The notes under the pieces were generated by a model. That model made no database searches. It saw only the letters and a program-made list of their open reading frames with translations, and was not told the origin of the DNA. The translations under genes were made by a program, and so were the position numbers. Positions 1 to 15,545 of a stretch of 19,241 nucleotides of DNA are shown here, in pieces. The stretch is from Pseudomonadota bacterium. GTDB lineage: Bacteria > Bdellovibrionota > Bacteriovoracia > Bacteriovoracales > Bacteriovoracaceae. The first letter of the stretch is position 1. Every line of letters starts with the position of its first letter. The stretch is taken from NCBI GenBank assembly GCA_023432655.1, contig JAEYUK010000184.1, forward strand, positions 1 through 19,241, given 5' to 3'.

Positions 1-3000
1 ATGTACCGGCCGGCACCGTCCAGTTGTAGGTAAATAAAGTGCTGGCGTGAGGCCCTGCTTGTGAAACCGGGTGATCTGGCGCTGCCGTCCAGGTGGCCCC
101 GTTATCAAGGGAGTAATGAATTTTAAAAACAGAAGCCGCTGATACAGAAGCCTCAGTAAGTCGCCATTTAACCGGGTAAACAATGCCATTAGGAAGAGTC
201 GGGATATTTTCTATCACGATTTGTGGTGCCGTCGTATCGTAGATAAAGTTAATTAACTGGGCACTGGAAATATTGTCGTAGGGATCACGGCCGTAAACTC
301 TGAGAGTTCTAAAGCCTTGGGCATTGGTAATAGTTGGATCAAAATTTAAGGCCCCAGCTAAAGTCGAACAGCTCTGCCAGCCACTATCAGTCGGCAGTGG
401 TGCAGTTGATTCCTCCTGGATTTTAACAAAGCTAATATCGGTACAATTGGGAGCGGTTAACGTGAGCAAGGCGGCCGTCGTAGAGACAGTCGGTGTGAAG
501 TTTGCCGGAGTTAAGGCCGGAACCGTTGGTGTTTTATCTTCCACATCGATAGTTATCGTCGCCACTGAACTAGAATCAAATTCATCATCATAGACAAGAT
601 AGGTAAAGGTTACTGGGCCATGGTAATGAGCTGGGGCCTTGTAGGTACACGTTCTGTCTGTAGTATAGGTCGTCGTATCAATACAATTAGTGAGTGTTCC
701 CGCACTTGGAGGTGTAACGAGTTTATACTTAAGGGAAGAGATCGGAGTATCGATGTCACTTCCTTGATTTATCGTGAAATTAAAATCGAAATTATCTCTG
801 GTTAAAAAACTCTGATCGATGGCCACTTGTGGTTCATCATTGACGGGAACGACGGTAATCGAAGCTGTGATCGCGCCGGCCGAAGTCAGAACGCCATCAT
901 TGACCCTATAAGTGAAAGAATCTGAACCATTGTAATCTGGATGAGGAAGATAGCTGCAGTTAAGAGTCGTTGCCATCGGACAAGTTAGAGTTCCATGAAG
1001 CGGCGGGGTGACGATAACATAAGAAAGAGTATCTAAATCAACATCGCTTCCAGGAACTAAATCAAAATCAAGTTGAGTGTCTTCATTCGTTGAAAGAGAT
1101 AAGATGCCAGTGAGTACAGGAGCATCGTTTACAGGGATAATTGTGAGTGAAATCGTACTCGTGTTGGAGTAATTCATTCCATCATAAGTTCTGAAAGTGA
1201 AAGAGTCACTGCCGTTATAATTTAAAACCGGCGCATACTGACAGAGATAATCCCCGCCGCTTACATGACAGTTAGAAAGCGATCCATTTGAGGGGTTTGT
1301 CGGGAAACTAAAAAGAAGACTGTCTCCATCCATATCTAGGATGCTACCAAGATTTATATAGAAAGGAGTATCTTCTAAGGTCGTGTGGGAGTTGGATGCT
1401 GTCACAGGAGGATTGTTGCCTGATTCAATAATCAGAGGTGTCGTATAGGTATCATTTCCGCAGGTGATGGTCGCAAAGGCCCTTCTGGTAGATTTCTCCA
1501 ATGGTGAGGCCATCACAGTCATTGGACAAGATCCCTGGGCCGGTATCAGAGTGTTTGAACAACCGTCACTTGTCATCATGAACTCGGAGACCTCCGGTCC
1601 AGATAAAGTTACCGGTGAGCAGAGCTTTGATGGAGCAAGACCCAGGTTAGTGAAATTGAAATTCATGGTCTTGGAACTTTTATTCAAGGCCGTCCCCATA
1701 TTAATCGTTAACGGACTTGAACTAAGATTCGGTCTATAAACGTTAAAGTTTGGAGTTTCGACGACAGTACTAAGTCCTAAGGAGTCAGCATAAGTAAGGC
1801 GGAATTTCCCATTGATAATATTGGTATTTGGGAAAGTGAATGGAAACCCAAATAGAGTTTCATTATGAGGCCCGGACGTGAGAGGCTGTGTCCCGATCTG
1901 CACCCACGAGGTTCCATTGAATAATTCGATATTAAAGTTTTGTGTTGGGACAGAATGATCTTCTTTTAAAGTCCACTCTAGTGTGGAGAGCGAATCTGCG
2001 ACATAGCTTGGAGGAAGGTTAATGAATTTGATGATAGGAGCGGTGGTATCAATGACCACACTCAGCTCTCGAGGTGTCTGTGAAACTCTTCCTTCAATAT
2101 CCTTTGACCAGAACTTTAAGACATGTGTCCCATCTCCCAAAGTGTTAAGGGGATAAGTGAAAGAATCAACCCCGCTTTCAACACAAGATCTATTAAAGGT
2201 CGCAGTGTTAAGGGTCTGATCGTTTTCTGTAATAGCGTAAGTTGAAAAAGTTTCGCAGCTGCTTCCTCCTTGAACCTCAAGCAACAGATCACGAGTTGAA
2301 GAAGGATTTACAAACAAAGAAGAGAAGCTTACCAGAGGGGCTTCGGCCGGGAATGTATCCTCGATATCTACATCCCAATCAATTTCATGATAAGGGTAAG
2401 AAGTGTCGATTTTCCCATTTGGTAAGGCCTTCCCCGTCGTAAGTGTAACTTTTTGTTGAAGGGGATTATTCGCCGAGGGACTATAGTTCATAATAGGTGC
2501 TGTGGAAGCTACAGCACCGTCAACTTTCCATTCGTAAGCAACTTGATAGTTTGAATCCCAGTGAGAGGCCTTAACTTCAAATTGATAAGATTTTTTTTCA
2601 GCTGCTTTCGTATGGTATTTAATTTCATTTATGTCAGGTGCCGTCTTTTTTAAATCAGTCAGCGAATTTTCAGGGAAAGCATTTACGAAAAGATTATCTA
2701 CTTTTCCTATGTCTTTAATGGCATCGTAAATGGAATTAAAGTCTTCACTGCCCCCAGCTTCTTTATTTATGACGGCATAGAGATCATCAAGATTTTTTGG
2801 GTTCGTTCCTTCAGATAAACCATTTTCAGTATTGATGATTTTGGAGATCATAGTTGTGATGAAGTCCAAATCTTGAGGAGTATAAAATGACGTCACAATC
2901 CGTTGGTAGTTTGTTTCACATCCAGAAGTGTGAAGCAGGTATCTGGTAGGTGTTTTGATTTCCAGTTTGAGTTCAATAGGATCAAAAGTAAAAATCGCTT

Positions 3001-3757
3001 CACCCTTAATAATCTCCTCTGAAAGTGGATTGTCTAGTAGGATGGACATATCTTTTAAGTCAAACAACAGGATACGGGGGTTGACACAAGTATTAGCAGC
3101 GTAAGCTGAGGAGATGAATGGGTTAAAAAAGTGGGAAGTGATAAGCCCTGACAGAGGTTTAACCTTACCAAAAAGAGAAGGAACTGGTTCAGGAGTCGAT
3201 TCAGCTTCATCAGATTTATTGTCCTTAGAATCAGTCATTGATCCTTGAGAGTTTCCTGAATCTGTAGAAGATGTTGAAGGAGGTAATAGACTTCCTCCTG
3301 CCATTGAAGTTGGAGCTGAACTCGTACTTCCTGAGGGAGCTTGGGAAGAACCCTGAACTCCAGACGAATCCGAACTGTAACCTTGTCTGCGAGAGTTTCT
3401 TGATCCATTTTGAGAAAAGTCGGAAGCCCTGGAGATAGTAGCACTCACCCCATTACTTGAAGTTCTTTCTTCACTACCTGAAGCATAGTGCGAGTCCGTA
3501 TCATTATACCTTCTTGTAGGCACAGATGAGGACTCAAGGTTCATTGGGCGTCTGATGACCGCGGCTGGACTTCGATAGGATTTAATGACTTTATTATTAA
3601 CTTTCAGTTTATGGCCGTAGGAAGGGCCTGATTCCTCGGTCGTTTCAGGCCCTTCAAGAACAGGCCTAGTCGAAAGTTTAGTACCTAAGAAGGCCAGTAG
3701 CCCTAAGGCCACCACCATTAATCCAGGTTTTAAGTATTTTCCTAATTCTTCTCTCAT
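1..3757 (-). CDS. Giant membrane-anchored modular protein with Ig/cadherin-like (tandem-95) repeats, C-terminus cut by window edge
   Basis: The reverse strand is open without a stop from the ATG at 3757 to base 1 (1,252 codons). Residues 1-11 are charged and 12-25 are one hydrophobic segment (LMVVALGLLAFLG) without an obvious cleavage site, suggesting an inner-membrane anchor. Residues about 70-190 are a Ser/Gly/Pro-rich linker. An Ig/PKD-like segment surrounds W410 (YEWKVDG). A DTTAP-type Ig-like module starts near D570, an ASH/choice-of-anchor-D-like module spans about 675-780, and three cadherin-like modules run 781-1074. A second DTTAP Ig-like module starts at D1174. Such modules usually serve adhesion or envelope scaffolding; the substrate is unknown. 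The start is supported by an AAGAAG stretch just upstream. No enzyme domain is visible in the part present. Confidence is high for a real gene and low for its role. Confidence 0.9.
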   Translation of the reverse strand, partial: MREELGKYLKPGLMVVALGLLAFLGTKLSTRPVLEGPETTEESGPSYGHKLKVNNKVIKSYRSPAAVIRRPMNLESSSVPTRRYNDTDSHYASGSEERTSSNGVSATISRASDFSQNGSRNSRRQGYSSDSSGVQGSSQAPSGSTSSAPTSMAGGSLLPPSTSSTDSGNSQGSMTDSKDNKSDEAESTPEPVPSLFGKVKPLSGLITSHFFNPFISSAYAANTCVNPRILLFDLKDMSILLDNPLSEEIIKGEAIFTFDPIELKLEIKTPTRYLLHTSGCETNYQRIVTSFYTPQDLDFITTMISKIINTENGLSEGTNPKNLDDLYAVINKEAGGSEDFNSIYDAIKDIGKVDNLFVNAFPENSLTDLKKTAPDINEIKYHTKAAEKKSYQFEVKASHWDSNYQVAYEWKVDGAVASTAPIMNYSPSANNPLQQKVTLTTGKALPNGKIDTSYPYHEIDWDVDIEDTFPAEAPLVSFSSLFVNPSSTRDLLLEVQGGSSCETFSTYAITENDQTLNTATFNRSCVESGVDSFTYPLNTLGDGTHVLKFWSKDIEGRVSQTPRELSVVIDTTAPIIKFINLPPSYVADSLSTLEWTLKEDHSVPTQNFNIELFNGTSWVQIGTQPLTSGPHNETLFGFPFTFPNTNIINGKFRLTYADSLGLSTVVETPNFNVYRPNLSSSPLTINMGTALNKSSKTMNFNFTNLGLAPSKLCSPVTLSGPEVSEFMMTSDGCSNTLIPAQGSCPMTVMASPLEKSTRRAFATITCGNDTYTTPLIIESGNNPPVTASNSHTTLEDTPFYINLGSILDMDGDSLLFSFPTNPSNGSLSNCHVSGGDYLCQYAPVLNYNGSDSFTFRTYDGMNYSNTSTISLTIIPVNDAPVLTGILSLSTNEDTQLDFDLVPGSDVDLDTLSYVIVTPPLHGTLTCPMATTLNCSYLPHPDYNGSDSFTYRVNDGVLTSAGAITASITVVPVNDEPQVAIDQSFLTRDNFDFNFTINQGSDIDTPISSLKYKLVTPPSAGTLTNCIDTTTYTTDRTCTYKAPAHYHGPVTFTYLVYDDEFDSSSVATITIDVEDKTPTVPALTPANFTPTVSTTAALLTLTAPNCTDISFVKIQEESTAPLPTDSGWQSCSTLAGALNFDPTITNAQGFRTLRVYGRDPYDNISSAQLINFIYDTTAPQIVIENIPTLPNGIVYPVKWRLTEASVSAASVFKIHYSLDNGATWTAAPDHPVSQAGPHASTLFTYNWTVPAGT
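536..1417 (-). repeat. Three tandem cadherin-like (tandem-95) modules within the giant protein
   Basis: Protein-level repeats begin at residues 781, 879 and 975 and end near 1074. Each of the first two has an early acidic ED box (LEDT, NEDT), a D-x-D calcium-type motif (DMDGD, DVDLD), a Y/H-x-G-S/P-x-x-F-T segment (YNGSDSFTF, YNGSDSFTY, YHGPVTFTY) and a closing V/I-P-V-ND or VED linker. The third keeps the later motifs but its ED box is degenerate (TRDN). Each module also carries a close Cys pair (C-x9-C, C-x8-C, C-x12-C). This is the pattern of calcium-binding cadherin-like tandem-95 domains. At DNA level the repeats are diverged, so they are not a recent duplication. Confidence 0.85.
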
Positions 3758-9767: not shown

Positions 9768-9792
9768 TTCACGATAAATTAAACTTATCTTT

Positions 9793-9805
9793 GGAGGTAT
9801 TCATT
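9793..9805 (+). promoter_or_regulatory. Ribosome binding site that places the tetR start at an ATT codon
   Basis: GGAGG at 9793-9797 is followed, after 5 nt, by ATT at 9803-9805. The only other possible start, TTG at 9791, overlaps the Shine-Dalgarno itself and has no ribosome site upstream. No in-frame ATG or GTG exists between the stop at 9764 and the conserved domain. Confidence 0.6.
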
Positions 9806-10396
9806 AATACGAAAGAAGTCATCCTAAAGAAGGCCCGTAAGCTTTTTGCTAAACATGGTTTTGACGGAGTCAGCATTAGAAATATTTGCGACAAAGTTAA
9901 TTGCAATGTGAGTGCAATTTCCTACCATTTTGGTAGCAAAGGTGAACTCTATCACGCTTGTCTAAAAGAAGAAGGCAAGAGTGTAATGGCCCTAATTCAA
10001 TCAGTTTTGACAGATCCAGAAGATCAGGCCGATTTTAAGGCCAAGCTCAAGCTTTTCATAGATCAGTTTTTCGAGCACTCTTATAATAACCGTGAAGCTA
10101 TTCTCATCATCAGTAAAGATGCTGGTTCAAGATCCACGATGAAACACGTTGAAAATATTTTTAACGAAATCCCTTTAGGCATTACTGCTTTCTTGGAAGC
10201 TGCGCAGAAGAAAGGTATCATTCGAGAAGATCTGGATGTTGGACTCATATGCAGTAGTATTCTAGATCCTATTTTTATGAAAGTACTGTTTGCCGACCTG
10301 CCTAAAAATATTAAACGCAAGGACATAAACGATCCAGCCGTTCGCCATGAATTTGTGTGTCAGCAGGCGGACATTCTGACTCGTGGTTTATTTTAA
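9803..10396 (+). CDS. TetR-family transcriptional regulator
   Basis: From the ATT start the protein has 197 residues. The N-terminus (NTKEVILKKARKLFAKHGF, residues 2-20) and the helix-turn-helix ending ISYHFGSKGELY (about 39-50) are classic TetR DNA-binding sequence. The rest is a helical ligand-binding and dimerisation domain that I cannot assign to a subfamily. It lies just upstream of, and in line with, the TolC/fusion/RND operon, the usual position for a local repressor responding to the pump's ligand. A shared sequence element in both upstream regions supports control of itself and the operon. The apparent ATT start codon is rare in bacteria and would keep its level low; a TTG start 12 bp earlier is the alternative. 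Confidence 0.9.
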   Translation: MNTKEVILKKARKLFAKHGFDGVSIRNICDKVNCNVSAISYHFGSKGELYHACLKEEGKSVMALIQSVLTDPEDQADFKAKLKLFIDQFFEHSYNNREAILIISKDAGSRSTMKHVENIFNEIPLGITAFLEAAQKKGIIREDLDVGLICSSILDPIFMKVLFADLPKNIKRKDINDPAVRHEFVCQQADILTRGLF

Positions 10397-10480: not shown

Positions 10481-10522
10481 TTTGTTTTAAAGTTCCACTT
10501 ATCAAAAATGATGGGAGTATTT

Positions 10523-11788
10523 ATGCATAAAATATCAGCGACCTTGCTCGCTGTATCAATGACCGGGGCCTTAAGTGCGCAAACTCCCGGTCTCTTGAAA
10601 GAATCTGACGTTATTCAAATGGCCCTCGAAAGAAATGAGATCAGTGCCATCACTAAGAACCAAATTGAGCAGGCCGAAATCCGCATTAAGCAGGCCCGCT
10701 CTTATATGTTTCCAACCTTGAAGGCCAATGCTACCTGGTCAAAAATGTATGTCCTTCCGGAAAAACGCTTGCCAGGTGGGATTGAGACTCGTTCAGGTGA
10801 AGTTAGCCTGACACAACCTATTTATACGTTTGGAAGATTGAGTACGGGAGTGGAGCTGGCCCGCTTGGGTAATGATATTACTAAAAACACCGCGAAGGCC
10901 ACGGTTGCGGAAATTGTGAAAACGGCCAAGCAGCTTTATTATAGTGCTGCCTTTAATAAGAATGTGCTCAAAATTGCCCAGGAGTCCCTGGCCAATGCTA
11001 ACAGCAACAAGAGTGCTTTAAATGAGCGGGTATCATTCGGTCGTATCAATCAGAATGATAACATTAAAATGCAGGCCGATGTGGCAAGCCGTAAACCGCT
11101 TCTTTATGAGGCCACTAAAGGTTATGAATCAGCATTGCAGGATCTTTCATCCTTCTTAGATATTCCGGTAGAACAAATCCAGAACATCGATGCCAATCTT
11201 GCAGACACTTCACGTGAACCGTTGACTGAAAAAAATGTTGATCACTTCGTTGATGTTGCCAATGCTGCCAATCAGAGAAAACTCTCTGCGGCCCAAGAGA
11301 AGCTGGCAAAAGATGATTACATGCCAACGCTTTCTGCTTTTGCAAGTTATGCCCCAACCAATGCAGATTTATCATTACCGGGAGTGCTTCTCACTGATAC
11401 TGCAAAATTTGGTCTGCGCTTAGATTTTGAACTGCCTTTAGGTGGGACTAAAATTCAAGAACGGAAAATTAAGAGTATTGATCGGGCGAATGCCGAGCTT
11501 AATCTTAGACGCGTGAGACGAGAGGCCGCTAAGGACCAATCATCTCTGATTCAGCAATATATGACTCTCGAAGATAAAAACAAATCAATTGAAGAAGCTG
11601 TTCAGTTGGCCGAAAGATCCTACCGGGTGGCCCTGCGCTCATTTCGAAATGGATCCATTAGCCAGTTGCAACTCAATGATTCTGAATTACTTTTAACCAA
11701 CAACAAAATTGCCCGGGCCCAGAACCTTTTACAAATGAAGCTCATTAGAACTGAACTCGAGCGTCTTCAAACAGAAGGGAAAAGATAA
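10523..11788 (+). CDS. TolC-family outer-membrane efflux protein
   Basis: The start is set at the ATG at 10523, 5 nt after GGGAG, giving 421 residues; an ATG 15 bp earlier is less likely. Residues 1-19 are a signal peptide ending ALSA. The mature protein has the two-fold repeat of outer-membrane efflux proteins: long amphipathic helices separated by beta segments such as SLTQPIYTFGR (about 95-105) and LRLDFELPLGG (about 300-311), the characteristic strand sequences of TolC relatives. Length is normal. Trimers form an outer-membrane channel with a periplasmic tunnel. Its stop overlaps the next start (TAATG), so translation is coupled to the fusion protein. Nothing in it looks degenerate. Confidence 0.93.
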   Translation: MHKISATLLAVSMTGALSAQTPGLLKESDVIQMALERNEISAITKNQIEQAEIRIKQARSYMFPTLKANATWSKMYVLPEKRLPGGIETRSGEVSLTQPIYTFGRLSTGVELARLGNDITKNTAKATVAEIVKTAKQLYYSAAFNKNVLKIAQESLANANSNKSALNERVSFGRINQNDNIKMQADVASRKPLLYEATKGYESALQDLSSFLDIPVEQIQNIDANLADTSREPLTEKNVDHFVDVANAANQRKLSAAQEKLAKDDYMPTLSAFASYAPTNADLSLPGVLLTDTAKFGLRLDFELPLGGTKIQERKIKSIDRANAELNLRRVRREAAKDQSSLIQQYMTLEDKNKSIEEAVQLAERSYRVALRSFRNGSISQLQLNDSELLLTNNKIARAQNLLQMKLIRTELERLQTEGKR

Positions 11789-12462
11789 TGAAATATCTAA
11801 GTATTGGTATTGTTTTTCTGGCCCTCTATGCCGGGAGCCTCTTTTGGAAGAACAAACAAATTGAAATAAAAAATAGCGCCTATCTGCCGACCACATATGA
11901 ATTACAAAAGAAAAACGGAATTCCGGTTTTTGTAGCAGAAGTGAAGAAAGATAAATTCCAGGATTTTATCACCATTACTGGAAGTTTTAAAAGTGGACAG
12001 TTAAAAAGTGCAGTGGCCCCGATGGTGAGAAACAAAATTAAAATCGGTGCTCGTGCAAAGCTTGAACTTGATAATGGTGAGAGAAAAATTTGGGGGCGTG
12101 TAGTTTCTGTCAGTTCCTCTCCAAACTTACTTACTGGATTGTATGAGGTTTCAGTCTCCTTTGAGGGTAAAATCCCTGGGAATTTAGGTGCAGTTACAGT
12201 GGACATCCCTGTGAGGGAAGTAAGTGGTGTTTTGGTGGTGCCCCGTGAGTCGGTCAATATTCGTGGAGAAAAACCTGCTCTTTTTGTTTTGGAAAATAAT
12301 AAATTATTGAAAAAGAATGTAGAGATTGCCGGTGCTAATGCCGATGTCTTTTGGATTAAGTCTGGCGTTAAAGAAAATGAAACCATTGTCATCAGTGATA
12401 CTCGATATTTTTCTGGTGGCGAATTTGTCAAAGTGATGACCCAAGCAAGGAATGAAATATGA
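11788..12462 (+). CDS. Minimal membrane-fusion (periplasmic adaptor) protein lacking lipoyl and hairpin domains
   Basis: The protein has 224 residues; RND adaptors are usually 350-420. Residues 4-19 are a membrane anchor or signal sequence. FITITGSFKSGQ (60-71) resembles the first adaptor strand. The chain then passes directly into a beta-barrel-like part (about 80-141, with GARAKLEL and WGRVVSV). LVVPRESV (149-156) marks the usual barrel to membrane-proximal junction, followed by a membrane-proximal-like domain to the end. The two lipoyl halves and the coiled hairpin that normally lie between are absent. The start overlaps the TolC stop and the stop overlaps the RND start (ATGA), so no coding room is missing. 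Assignment rests on position plus the C-terminal pattern. Confidence 0.8.
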   Translation: MKYLSIGIVFLALYAGSLFWKNKQIEIKNSAYLPTTYELQKKNGIPVFVAEVKKDKFQDFITITGSFKSGQLKSAVAPMVRNKIKIGARAKLELDNGERKIWGRVVSVSSSPNLLTGLYEVSVSFEGKIPGNLGAVTVDIPVREVSGVLVVPRESVNIRGEKPALFVLENNKLLKKNVEIAGANADVFWIKSGVKENETIVISDTRYFSGGEFVKVMTQARNEI

Positions 12463-15400
12463 TTGAAACCTTTATCCGTCGCCCGGCAACGACGATCATT
12501 TTTATTGCCGTCTTCATGGTGCTGGGTCTTTCCTCTATTGGGAACATGATCATTGAGCCTACTCCTAAAGTAGAATTCCCTCTAGTTTCAATTGAGACCA
12601 TTTATCCGGGAGCTTCGCCGGATGAAATTGAAACTCAGATTCTGAAAAGAATCGAGGACGCCATCTCCGAAGTTTCTGAAATTAAGAAGATCAACGGTAT
12701 GGCCCGGGAAAACTTCGGGATGGTCATGGTAGAGTTTAATATCGAAGCCGATGTTAACGTAAAGTCCATTGAGATTAAAGATAAGGTTGAGGCCATCTTG
12801 GATGATTTCCCATCAGGGGCCGAACGACCGGTGATTGCTAAGTTTGACCCTCTTCTATTACCCATAGCTGCTTTGATTCTTACCAGTGATAAGCACGACA
12901 TGACTCAGCTTTATGAGTTCTCAGATAAAAAGCTGAAAACGCTACTGACTTCAATTAATGGTGTCGCTTCGGTTGATATTTCAGGAGGGCGTGAAAGACA
13001 AATTAACGTCTGGCTAGATAACAACCTTTTGATTAAAAATTATCTTTCTATTCAAAACGTCACCCGGGCGATAGAGGAGAAAAACCTCAATATTCCTGGT
13101 GGATCCATTGATCGACAAGATAATAAAGTAACCGTTCGTTTCGTGGGTGAGTTCCAATCGGTTAAAGATATTGAAAATCTTAAGATCACCTCTAATGAGG
13201 GGCGAACCTATCTTTTAAAAGAGATTGGCCGAGTCGAAGATAGTTATAAAGAAATTGAAAAAGTCGCTCGCTTCAATGGAGAAGAGGTTGTCGCTCTCTC
13301 GGTAAAAAAACTCTCTGATGGGGATGCCGTAAGGATTGTATCGAGTCTTAAAAAGAAGTTGCCTGAAATTCAAAAGTCTCTACCGGAAGGTATGAACCTA
13401 AGAATGGGTATTGATACCACAGAGATTACATTAGATGAGACAGTCGGAACGGTAAAAGGTATTGTCCTTGGTGTTGGTTTAACCGTACTTACGATTCTCT
13501 TTTTCTTGGGTGATTGGCGCGGGGCGATTATTTCTGCCATCGTTATTCCCACATCTATTATTTCGACATTCTTTATAATGGACATGCAGAATTTCTCCAT
13601 TAACAACATGACACTTCTGGCCTTCGGAACCTGTTTGGGGACCCTGATTGCCAACGCTCTTTTGATCATTGAGAACGTCTATAAACACTTACAGATGGGT
13701 AAGGATTCCATTAGAGCATCGGTCGATGGAACCAAAGAGGTGCTCTTAGCGGTTCTCGCCGGTTCAGGAACTAATATTGTGGTGTTCTCACCACTTGCCT
13801 TGATGGGGGGGATCATTGGTAAATTCATGATTCAGTTCGGGATGACTGTAGTTTATGCAACTCTCTTCTCGATTTTAGCATCAATTACTCTGACCCCTAT
13901 GCTTTGTGCCTATCTTCTTAAAGACCCAAAGAAACTTAAGGGACCTTTTGTCCGTTTTGCCTCCGGACTTGATAAAGTGCTTGATCGGATGATGGGATTT
14001 TTTAAGACTCCCTTCGATTTCATGATGAAAAGACCGATCGTCTCAATCGCTCTGGTGATTGCTCTTTTCCTAAGTATTCAGTATCCGGCCTCCCGGATTG
14101 GTTCAGAATTTATTCCACGCTCTGATCGGGATGAATTCACAGTAGAACTAGAAATGCCTGATGGAACACCAGTGGAAAAAACCACTGAGACGATTAAACA
14201 ACTAGAAGCAGATATTAAAGTCTATCCAGAAGTCATTAATTATTTCTCTGATATCGGTTATGATGGAGAGGATAAGGGACGTATTACGGTTAAACTAACT
14301 CCTAGTAAAACCCGTGAGCGTTCTTATGAAGCCATCATGAATGATCTCCTTCCAAAAACGGCCCTCTTACCAGAGGCGAAAGTTTATCTCTCAGGTGGTA
14401 ACAAGACTAACGATGGTCTAGGAGATATTACCATTGATATCCGAGGCGATAATATTCAAGATATGGCCGTAGTTTCTGAAAAGTTCTCTGCCATCATGAA
14501 TGAGACAGGGTATTTTAGTGGTATTAAATCCAGCTACATCCGCCCTAAAATGGAAGTTCGTTTTGAACCAAATCCTGAAGCCGTGATTCAACAAAGACTT
14601 ACCAACGCTGCAGTCGGTTCTGTTATCCGAGCTCTGGTTAATGGTAATGATGAGTCAGTCTATAAGGAAGGCGGAGAAGAATACGACATTAATGTGACCT
14701 TAGATAAGGGCTTTAAAAAGACTCCTGAAGACTTCAACCAGTTTTTGATTATGGGTAAGGATGGTCTCATTCCGATCTCATCACTGGGTGAAGTTAAACA
14801 AGTTGAGGCCACTTCGCCGGTTAAGCGTCGTGATAAATCTAAAATCATTCAGCTTAACGGATTTTTAAATAAATCGAGTGCCGGGGTTGTCATGGGACAA
14901 CTTGCGGAGTCCTTCAAGGATGTTGAAATGCCGGAAGGCGTTTCCTACCGCTATACCGGTAAGGCCGAAAATCAGGAAGAGTCTGCCGCCGAGATTGGTA
15001 AGGCCTTTTTACTTGCCACTATTTTAACCTACATGCTTTTAGTGGCGGTATTAAACTCCTTCATTTATCCCATTTCAATTTCGAGTTGTATTGTGACATC
15101 CTTTTTAGGCGTGTTTCTGATGCTCTATTTCTTTGATGGATCTGTGAACATCGGTTCGATGATGGCCTTTGTAATGGTCGTGGGTCTAGCAGTGAACAAC
15201 GCCATTCTTTTGGTTGAATATGCTCACCAATTAATGGACCAAGGGATGAAGGCGGAAGACGCTTTATGGGAGTCGGCCAAGTCGAAAATTAAACCGATTC
15301 TTATGACATCGATTGCGATTATCACTGGTACTATGCCTCAGGCCTTTGATGCTGATAAAATTAAGGCCTCCATGGGATTAGTGGTGATTGGGGGGATGCT

Positions 15401-15545
15401 AGCGTCCATCGTTTTCACTTACGTTATGACTCCTCCGGTTCACATACTCCTTATGAGAATTAAAAAGTTTGCTGCTCGCTTTAAATCTCGGCAGGTTGGT
15501 AAAGATATTCCTGAGATTGTTGCCAGTGTGAAGCACGCTGAATAA
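12459..15545 (+). CDS. RND-superfamily (HAE1/AcrB-like) inner-membrane protein without the proton-relay residues
   Basis: The protein is 1,028 residues, normal for the AcrB family, with TM1 at about 8-28, a first periplasmic loop, TM2-6 at about 333-485, TM7 at about 528-545, a second periplasmic loop, and TM8-12 at about 847-1005. Family landmarks include FIRRPATT (5-12), the TM4 region ending ALLIIEN (400-406), and KPILMTS in TM11. Where AcrB has Asp407-Asp408 in TM4, this protein has Ala398-Asn399 (LIANALLIIEN). Where AcrB has Lys940 in TM10, it has Asn913 (GLAVNNAILLVEY). These residues carry proton coupling in AcrB, so a normal proton-driven cycle is unlikely. It overlaps the adaptor by 4 bp and ends before a strong terminator. 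The reading frame is intact. Confidence 0.93.
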   Translation: MIETFIRRPATTIIFIAVFMVLGLSSIGNMIIEPTPKVEFPLVSIETIYPGASPDEIETQILKRIEDAISEVSEIKKINGMARENFGMVMVEFNIEADVNVKSIEIKDKVEAILDDFPSGAERPVIAKFDPLLLPIAALILTSDKHDMTQLYEFSDKKLKTLLTSINGVASVDISGGRERQINVWLDNNLLIKNYLSIQNVTRAIEEKNLNIPGGSIDRQDNKVTVRFVGEFQSVKDIENLKITSNEGRTYLLKEIGRVEDSYKEIEKVARFNGEEVVALSVKKLSDGDAVRIVSSLKKKLPEIQKSLPEGMNLRMGIDTTEITLDETVGTVKGIVLGVGLTVLTILFFLGDWRGAIISAIVIPTSIISTFFIMDMQNFSINNMTLLAFGTCLGTLIANALLIIENVYKHLQMGKDSIRASVDGTKEVLLAVLAGSGTNIVVFSPLALMGGIIGKFMIQFGMTVVYATLFSILASITLTPMLCAYLLKDPKKLKGPFVRFASGLDKVLDRMMGFFKTPFDFMMKRPIVSIALVIALFLSIQYPASRIGSEFIPRSDRDEFTVELEMPDGTPVEKTTETIKQLEADIKVYPEVINYFSDIGYDGEDKGRITVKLTPSKTRERSYEAIMNDLLPKTALLPEAKVYLSGGNKTNDGLGDITIDIRGDNIQDMAVVSEKFSAIMNETGYFSGIKSSYIRPKMEVRFEPNPEAVIQQRLTNAAVGSVIRALVNGNDESVYKEGGEEYDINVTLDKGFKKTPEDFNQFLIMGKDGLIPISSLGEVKQVEATSPVKRRDKSKIIQLNGFLNKSSAGVVMGQLAESFKDVEMPEGVSYRYTGKAENQEESAAEIGKAFLLATILTYMLLVAVLNSFIYPISISSCIVTSFLGVFLMLYFFDGSVNIGSMMAFVMVVGLAVNNAILLVEYAHQLMDQGMKAEDALWESAKSKIKPILMTSIAIITGTMPQAFDADKIKASMGLVVIGGMLASIVFTYVMTPPVHILLMRIKKFAARFKSRQVGKDIPEIVASVKHAE

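Follow-up and report, generated by a model that had tools for sequence, protein, structure and literature searches.

RND pumps are regarded as being driven by the Asp-Asp-Lys relay. For pumps of the HAE1 type, GX3DX6E is given as the motif of TM4 in two papers (PMC2891726, PMC5719797), and in the latter P906, G930, N941, R971, T978 and G1010 are named within the proton path of AcrB. With regard to the adaptor, BesABC of Borrelia burgdorferi, whose adaptor has no alpha-hairpin, was reported as a functional drug exporter (PMC2279261, PMC3807786); a reduced adaptor is therefore compatible with export. Among the papers that a literature search listed, none dealt with RND permeases in which both TM4 acids are missing, which does not imply absence from print, as most subscription papers lay outside the coverage of the search.

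The window, that is the whole analysed stretch of 19,241 nucleotides, carries on its forward strand an operon encoding a TolC-like outer membrane factor of 426 amino acids (10508..11788, matching OEP in two stretches), a mini periplasmic adaptor or membrane fusion protein of 224 amino acids (11788..12462, assigned by profiles and a model) and an RND permease of 1028 amino acids starting with ATG (12459..15545, assigned by its open reading frame, PF00873, the AcrB alignment and the predicted fold). The adaptor gene shares 1 base with the channel gene and 4 bases with the permease gene. Upstream of the operon a TetR-family regulator is encoded on the same strand (9791..10396, family match). The permease matched PF00873 (ACR_tran) with 676.6 bits, against a cut-off of 28, over residues 1-998, and its predicted fold is AcrB-like with 12 TM helices, porter and docking domains and a TM-score of 0.91 to AcrD (8f3e_B). 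In this fold and in the PF00873 match over nearly the whole length the protein resembles HAE1 pumps (AcrB, AcrD, MdtB/MdtC), and the resemblance extends to the outer membrane factor and adaptor in the operon, the TetR regulator and the Gly and Glu of GX3DX6E. On the reverse strand, positions 2-3757 of the window encode a large incomplete protein with repeated domains, which we take, by eye, to be cadherin- or VCBS-like.

The permease was aligned with AcrB, CusA, MdtB and MdtC of E. coli K-12. TM4 of the window permease reads GTLIANALLIIEN and TM10 reads GLAVNNAILLVEY, and in the alignment with AcrB A398 and N399 (codons 13650..13655, +) take the places of D407 and D408, while N913 takes that of K940 (15195..15197; 15195..15200, + strand, together with N914, the counterpart of N941). 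The codons of all three replaced residues fall within the interval 13626..15224 given in the preliminary description. Furthermore, T950 corresponds to T978, K943 to R971 and E405 (13671..13673, +) to E414. The window permease departs from AcrB at D407, D408, K940 and R971, at the last position merely by Lys. The preliminary description had proposed a full-length RND pump with the relay replaced by Ala398, Asn399 and Asn913 and with Glu405 retained at the position of AcrB Glu414; the AcrB alignment confirmed both, and alignment with the HAE1 and HME references (AcrB, MdtB, MdtC, CusA) placed no acid of the permease at the relay positions. Where HAE1 pumps have Asp407-Asp408 in TM4 and Lys or Arg in TM10, this protein has A398, N399 and N913, and of GX3DX6E it keeps G394 and E405 with Ala in place of the Asp. 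Nor does it agree with the HME type, as the first TM4 Asp is absent and TIGR00914 reached 311 bits against a cut-off of 701.45. CusA, an HME protein, resembles the pumps described here in having no Lys at AcrB position 940, where Glu was aligned, but differs in that the first TM4 Asp is kept. The permease matched 14 NCBIfam models but reached the curated cut-off of none, scoring 413 bits against 940.35 for TIGR00915 and 603.8 against 1250 for NF033617, the best of them. By predicted fold and Pfam the protein is an RND permease, and it is outside the residue definitions of both HAE1 and HME. We refer to it and its relatives as ANN pumps, after the residues at 398, 399 and 913; other RND proteins are named likewise by their residues at AcrB positions 407, 408 and 940.

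Close relatives share the Ala/Asn/Asn replacement. Homologues were compiled from the best 120 of 5837 and the best 120 of 3198 matches passing E 0.001, which gave 196 distinct proteins; the first 120 of these share between 98% and 45% identity with the window permease, while the ranking of the remaining 76 was based on an alignment of distant members. An acid at 398 or 399, or a Lys at 913, does not occur in any of the 196 proteins listed, one being a fragment in which TM10 is missing. The residues at 398/399/913/914 are ANNN in 111, SNNN in 5, ANND in 3 and AN-- in 1 (the fragment) of the first 120, and ANNN in 51, SNNN in 19, ANND in 3 and ANNG in 3 of the 76 further proteins. N399, T438 and N439 in TM5 (13770..13775, +; AcrB V448-L449) and E845 at the start of TM8 (14991..14993, +) are invariant in all 196, as are N913 and the TM11 residue Q961 (15339..15341, +; AcrB L989) in the 195 with a letter there. 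In six of the 196 (P0107, P0108, P0115, P0220, P0276 and P0277) an Asp stands at the position of AcrB N941, adjoining the lost Lys site. Source labels, where present, name Bacteriovoracaceae, Halobacteriovorax, Elusimicrobiota, Omnitrophota/Omnitrophica and one Syntrophales, with the labels of MAGs possibly being wrong.

For the comparison of loci, the window, five named relatives and 20 stretches from Bdellovibrionota genomes were combined. The permeases of these 26 loci are 42-92% identical to that of the window (L091 and L092 are 99.7% alike; the partial members G083 and G300 were left out), and all 26 read A-N-N-N at 398/399/913/914, using four Ala codons and both Asn codons at the relay sites. 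A single base change turns the Asn codons or GCC/GCT into an Asp codon, and two are required for GCA/GCG; being so near and yet absent, Asp is presumably kept out by selection. The dN/dS of the window gene was 0.032 against L005 and 0.058 against L004, figures which are rough because dS was high (1.7 and 2.0), and a third pair (L001) gave no value. Of 368 Bdellovibrionota genomes at least 26 carry a member of the clade at E 1e-250; the count is a minimum, as G021, which yielded a fragment, is not one of these. One genome (G002) holds two members (L024 and L029), 73% and 46% identical to the window permease and each with a short adaptor of its own. Plasmid records matched in 119 cases at E 1e-100 and phage records in 58, all with less than 60% identity (at best 29.6% among the 25 plasmid matches listed and 28.6% among the ten phage matches listed), and therefore no close member was seen there; viral contigs scanned with the clade alignment yielded no relative. 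Spread by plasmids or phages was rejected on these matches.

The relationship to other RND classes was examined in a tree of 72 proteins from which the columns of TM4, TM5 and TM10 had been removed. All 41 ANN/SNN rows (the window, 10 locus rows and 30 of the first 120 homologues, none being from the 76) formed a single clade beside the Asp-Asp-Lys HAE1 pumps, with an SH-aLRT of 100 and a stem length of 0.98, in a tree built by a quick method with no mixture model and no bootstrap and with a long-branch warning elsewhere. The other 31 rows are RND proteins of relative genomes and four from E. coli. Every one of them has Asp at the position of AcrB 407, and they belong to the classes DDK, DDR, DGL, DGI, DAL, DAE and DNN.

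More of the proton wire is changed than the three residues of the preliminary description. At the position of AcrB P906, occupied in the window by V879 (15093..15095, +), Pro was found in none of the 41 ANN rows vs all 31 others. The position of G930 holds Ala in 26 and Gly in 11 of the 41 ANN rows, against Gly in 24 and Ala in seven of the 31 others, and that of R971 holds Lys in 35 and Arg in five of 41. Kept within the ANN rows are N941 (Asn in 40 of 41), T978 (Thr in 39 of 41) and G1010 (Gly in 41 of 41). In the ANN pumps both TM4 Asp residues of HAE1 pumps, the first being that of GX3DX6E, are replaced, and so are the TM9 Pro and the TM10 Lys. We defined as clade-conserved those residues which are present in at least 90% of the 41 ANN rows and in fewer than half of the DDK rows, 13 in number. 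These form a mostly neutral polar membrane core composed of T328 and T331 (TM2), S369 (TM3), T391 and T395 (TM4), T438 and N439 (TM5), T468 and S475 (TM6), T857 (TM8), T880 (TM9) and Q961 (TM11); at the place of S475, 13 of the 18 pumps from other classes have Ser as well. The clade has also gained charged residues close to the ends of TM8 and TM12, namely E845, K848 and K969. The last of these, situated where TM12 begins (15363..15365, +), is Lys in 194, Arg in one and Glu in one of the 196 homologues listed. As buried acids E405 (TM4) and E920 (TM10) are still present.

The adaptor likewise goes beyond the earlier reading, as it is without lipoyl domain and alpha-hairpin, the parts that characterize canonical adaptors of the AcrA/MexA type, and consists of an N-terminal helix, a membrane-proximal and a beta-barrel part only. 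Its C-terminal half matches TIGR01730 at positions 187-321, below the cut-off of the model, and a full-length adaptor profile of 368 positions was matched at 38-75 and again at 223-365, which means that some 150 positions, those of the lipoyl domain and the hairpin, are missing. For the limits of these domains on the profile we assumed those of AcrA. Pfam gave nothing for the window adaptor at E 0.001, and for 30 short adaptors at E 0.05 weak matches only, the best with E 0.0005. The structural model (pLDDT 83.8) shows strands and a single N-terminal helix but lacks a hairpin; among solved structures, BesA of Borrelia burgdorferi matched it best (4kku, E 1.8e-11, TM-score about 0.6). In PMC3807786 BesA is described as having no alpha-hairpin, like the mini-adaptors, but it keeps the lipoyl domain, which is absent from them. 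The window adaptor is thus not of the BesA type, its lipoyl region being absent too.

Evidence on adaptor and operon derives from the Bdellovibrionota loci. In all 26 the gene of the outer membrane factor is followed by that of the short adaptor and then by that of the ANN pump (in L095 with a channel gene shortened at the contig end), and a gene similar to the TetR regulator of the window was present in 19 of the 26 stretches. The adaptors comprise 219-240 amino acids at 25 loci and 140 at L097, and at all 26 a strong match to the full-length adaptor profile starts only at positions 200-297, with no lipoyl or hairpin region seen in any of them. A profile search of the protein database placed 22 short adaptors (P0121-P0142, 176-241 amino acids) well above the rest. 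Length controls were confined to L006 (379 amino acids), E. coli AcrA and MdtA. The nine proton-type (DDK) RND loci L099-L107 of Bdellovibrionota genomes have no adaptor gene in the stretch examined (9/9, two adaptor profiles) and are therefore unusable as a control of adaptor length; they may represent two-part systems. TolC-like neighbours of DDK loci were detected by family search at L009 (the same as L099), L105, L106 and L107, and by eye at L100, L101 and L103. The adaptor of L097 (10112-10534, reverse strand) is shorter still, with positions 62-151 of the 222 in the profile left out of its match. His/Asp-rich genes at L007 (811-1476, 221 amino acids) and L008 (4608-5153, 181 amino acids) lie upstream of RND genes grouping with CusA and show a weak similarity to the mini-adaptor profile (E-values for 11 sequences).

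As the loss of the relay and the stripped-down adaptor are kept unchanged in an old family, the pumps probably run otherwise. The explanation we favour, plausible and of nearly even probability on the sequence data, is that of an old and strictly conserved RND subfamily in which the proton-binding Asp-Asp-Lys core would have given way to a neutral core rich in Asn, Thr and Gln, and which would act together with a TolC-like channel and the mini-adaptor, AcrB-type protonation being unusable and coupling to a cation putative. Protonation of carboxylates as in AcrB would not be able to energise an ANN pump, and the substrate would still be moved from the periplasm to the outside. With less confidence, we suggest that the neutral residues conserved in TM4, TM5, TM10 and TM11 might coordinate a monovalent cation, e.g., Na+, at a site placed by alignment and pseudo-symmetry. 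This cation would take over the role of the proton, and the rocking of the two TM repeats would still be coupled to the porter domain. The cation site is preferred because buried polar residues would otherwise not be expected to be invariant at 45% identity. Docking to the channel probably occurs via direct contact between permease and channel, as modelled in print for BesABC. Somewhat more tentatively, the clade may constitute a third energetic class of RND exporters beside the proton-driven HAE1 and HME, ancient and distributed over several phyla, with a neutral Asn/Thr core, another cation or none, TolC-like channels and a mini-adaptor of membrane-proximal and beta-barrel parts. Having lost the relay under strong purifying selection with pump body and channel kept, the clade offers a natural test of the drive from membrane to porter domain. 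It also bears on the questions whether RND proteins can use other ions or act as unpowered ducts and how small the adaptor of a tripartite system can be.

As to energisation, we would rank the neutral cation site first and an unenergised conduit second. In the latter case the membrane domain would not be driven at all: the neutral core would pin the two TM repeats in one state near the protonated O state, and the protein would serve as a passive, perhaps substrate-gated conduit or as a structural bridge from the inner membrane to the outer channel. This is possible, if on the whole unlikely. According to PMC4359379 the Asp pair of AcrB is protonated in the O state, and structures of the D407N and R971A variants are shifted from T towards O. 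The TM cores of ANN pumps carry fewer charges, with a mean of 3.5 acidic and 1.9 basic residues vs 6.8 and 5.7 in the 13 DDK pumps, and the mini-adaptor is without the parts that contact the channel in AcrA; both would suit an unpowered duct. Several top matches of the permease model are moreover O-state entries or AcrB chain C, a likeness of little weight, as no control protein was predicted and the conformational state of most matched AcrB-type chains was presumed by us. A mere scaffold, however, would need neither the invariant T438, N439, N399, N913 and Q961 of the listed homologues nor the intact porter domain of the predicted fold.

Coupling to protons could also have persisted and moved to E405 (TM4), to E920 (TM10) or to E845, K848 and K969 at the membrane edge, which we regard as improbable. 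E405 is acidic throughout the 196 listed homologues (195 Glu, one Asp) and E845 is always Glu, where the 13 DDK pumps have Ser (11) or Gln (2). T950 and N914, which belong to the AcrB wire, are retained, and change at the position of R971 is conservative, with Lys or Arg in 40 of 41 rows. The position of E405, however, is just as conserved in Asp-bearing pumps (Glu in 29 and Asp in two of 31), so that E405 is no new substitute, and E845 would lie near the start of TM8, away from the space between TM4 and TM10.

RND heterotrimers such as MdtB/MdtC are known, and the preliminary description had considered the permease as an inactive subunit paired with a second RND protein; such a partner would be proton-driven and encoded elsewhere in the genome. 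Five relative genomes do hold several RND matches, 6 to 13 each and 50 in total including fragments. Against such a partnership, no second RND gene adjoins the pump in the 26 neighbourhoods; at L005 and L086 a separate RND gene lies 4-5 kb away on the other strand, with a TM4 of the DDR class at L086. The nearest non-ANN RND protein aligned from the five relative genomes (loci of 30 matches given) shares only 27.9% identity with the window permease, and the nearest DDK pumps seen in other Bdellovibrionota genomes reach 31-32%. We therefore consider the heterotrimer very improbable; of the earlier interpretation, the full-length pump without relay stands, its suggestions of work without AcrB-type proton coupling, of another ion and of a passive conduit are possible readings, and the inactive partner is disfavoured. 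That the gene is an ordinary pump gene recently inactivated, or misread in sequencing, was rejected, no support having been found for it: the relay is kept in 0 of the 196 homologues listed, synonymous codons vary at its sites, and dN/dS is 0.03-0.06.

Two relative genomes encode RND proteins of the DNN class (L030 and L034), with Asp-Asn in TM4 and Asn in TM10. These share with the ANN pumps the Asn at AcrB positions 408 and 940; they differ from them in keeping the Asp at 407 and are placed elsewhere in the tree.
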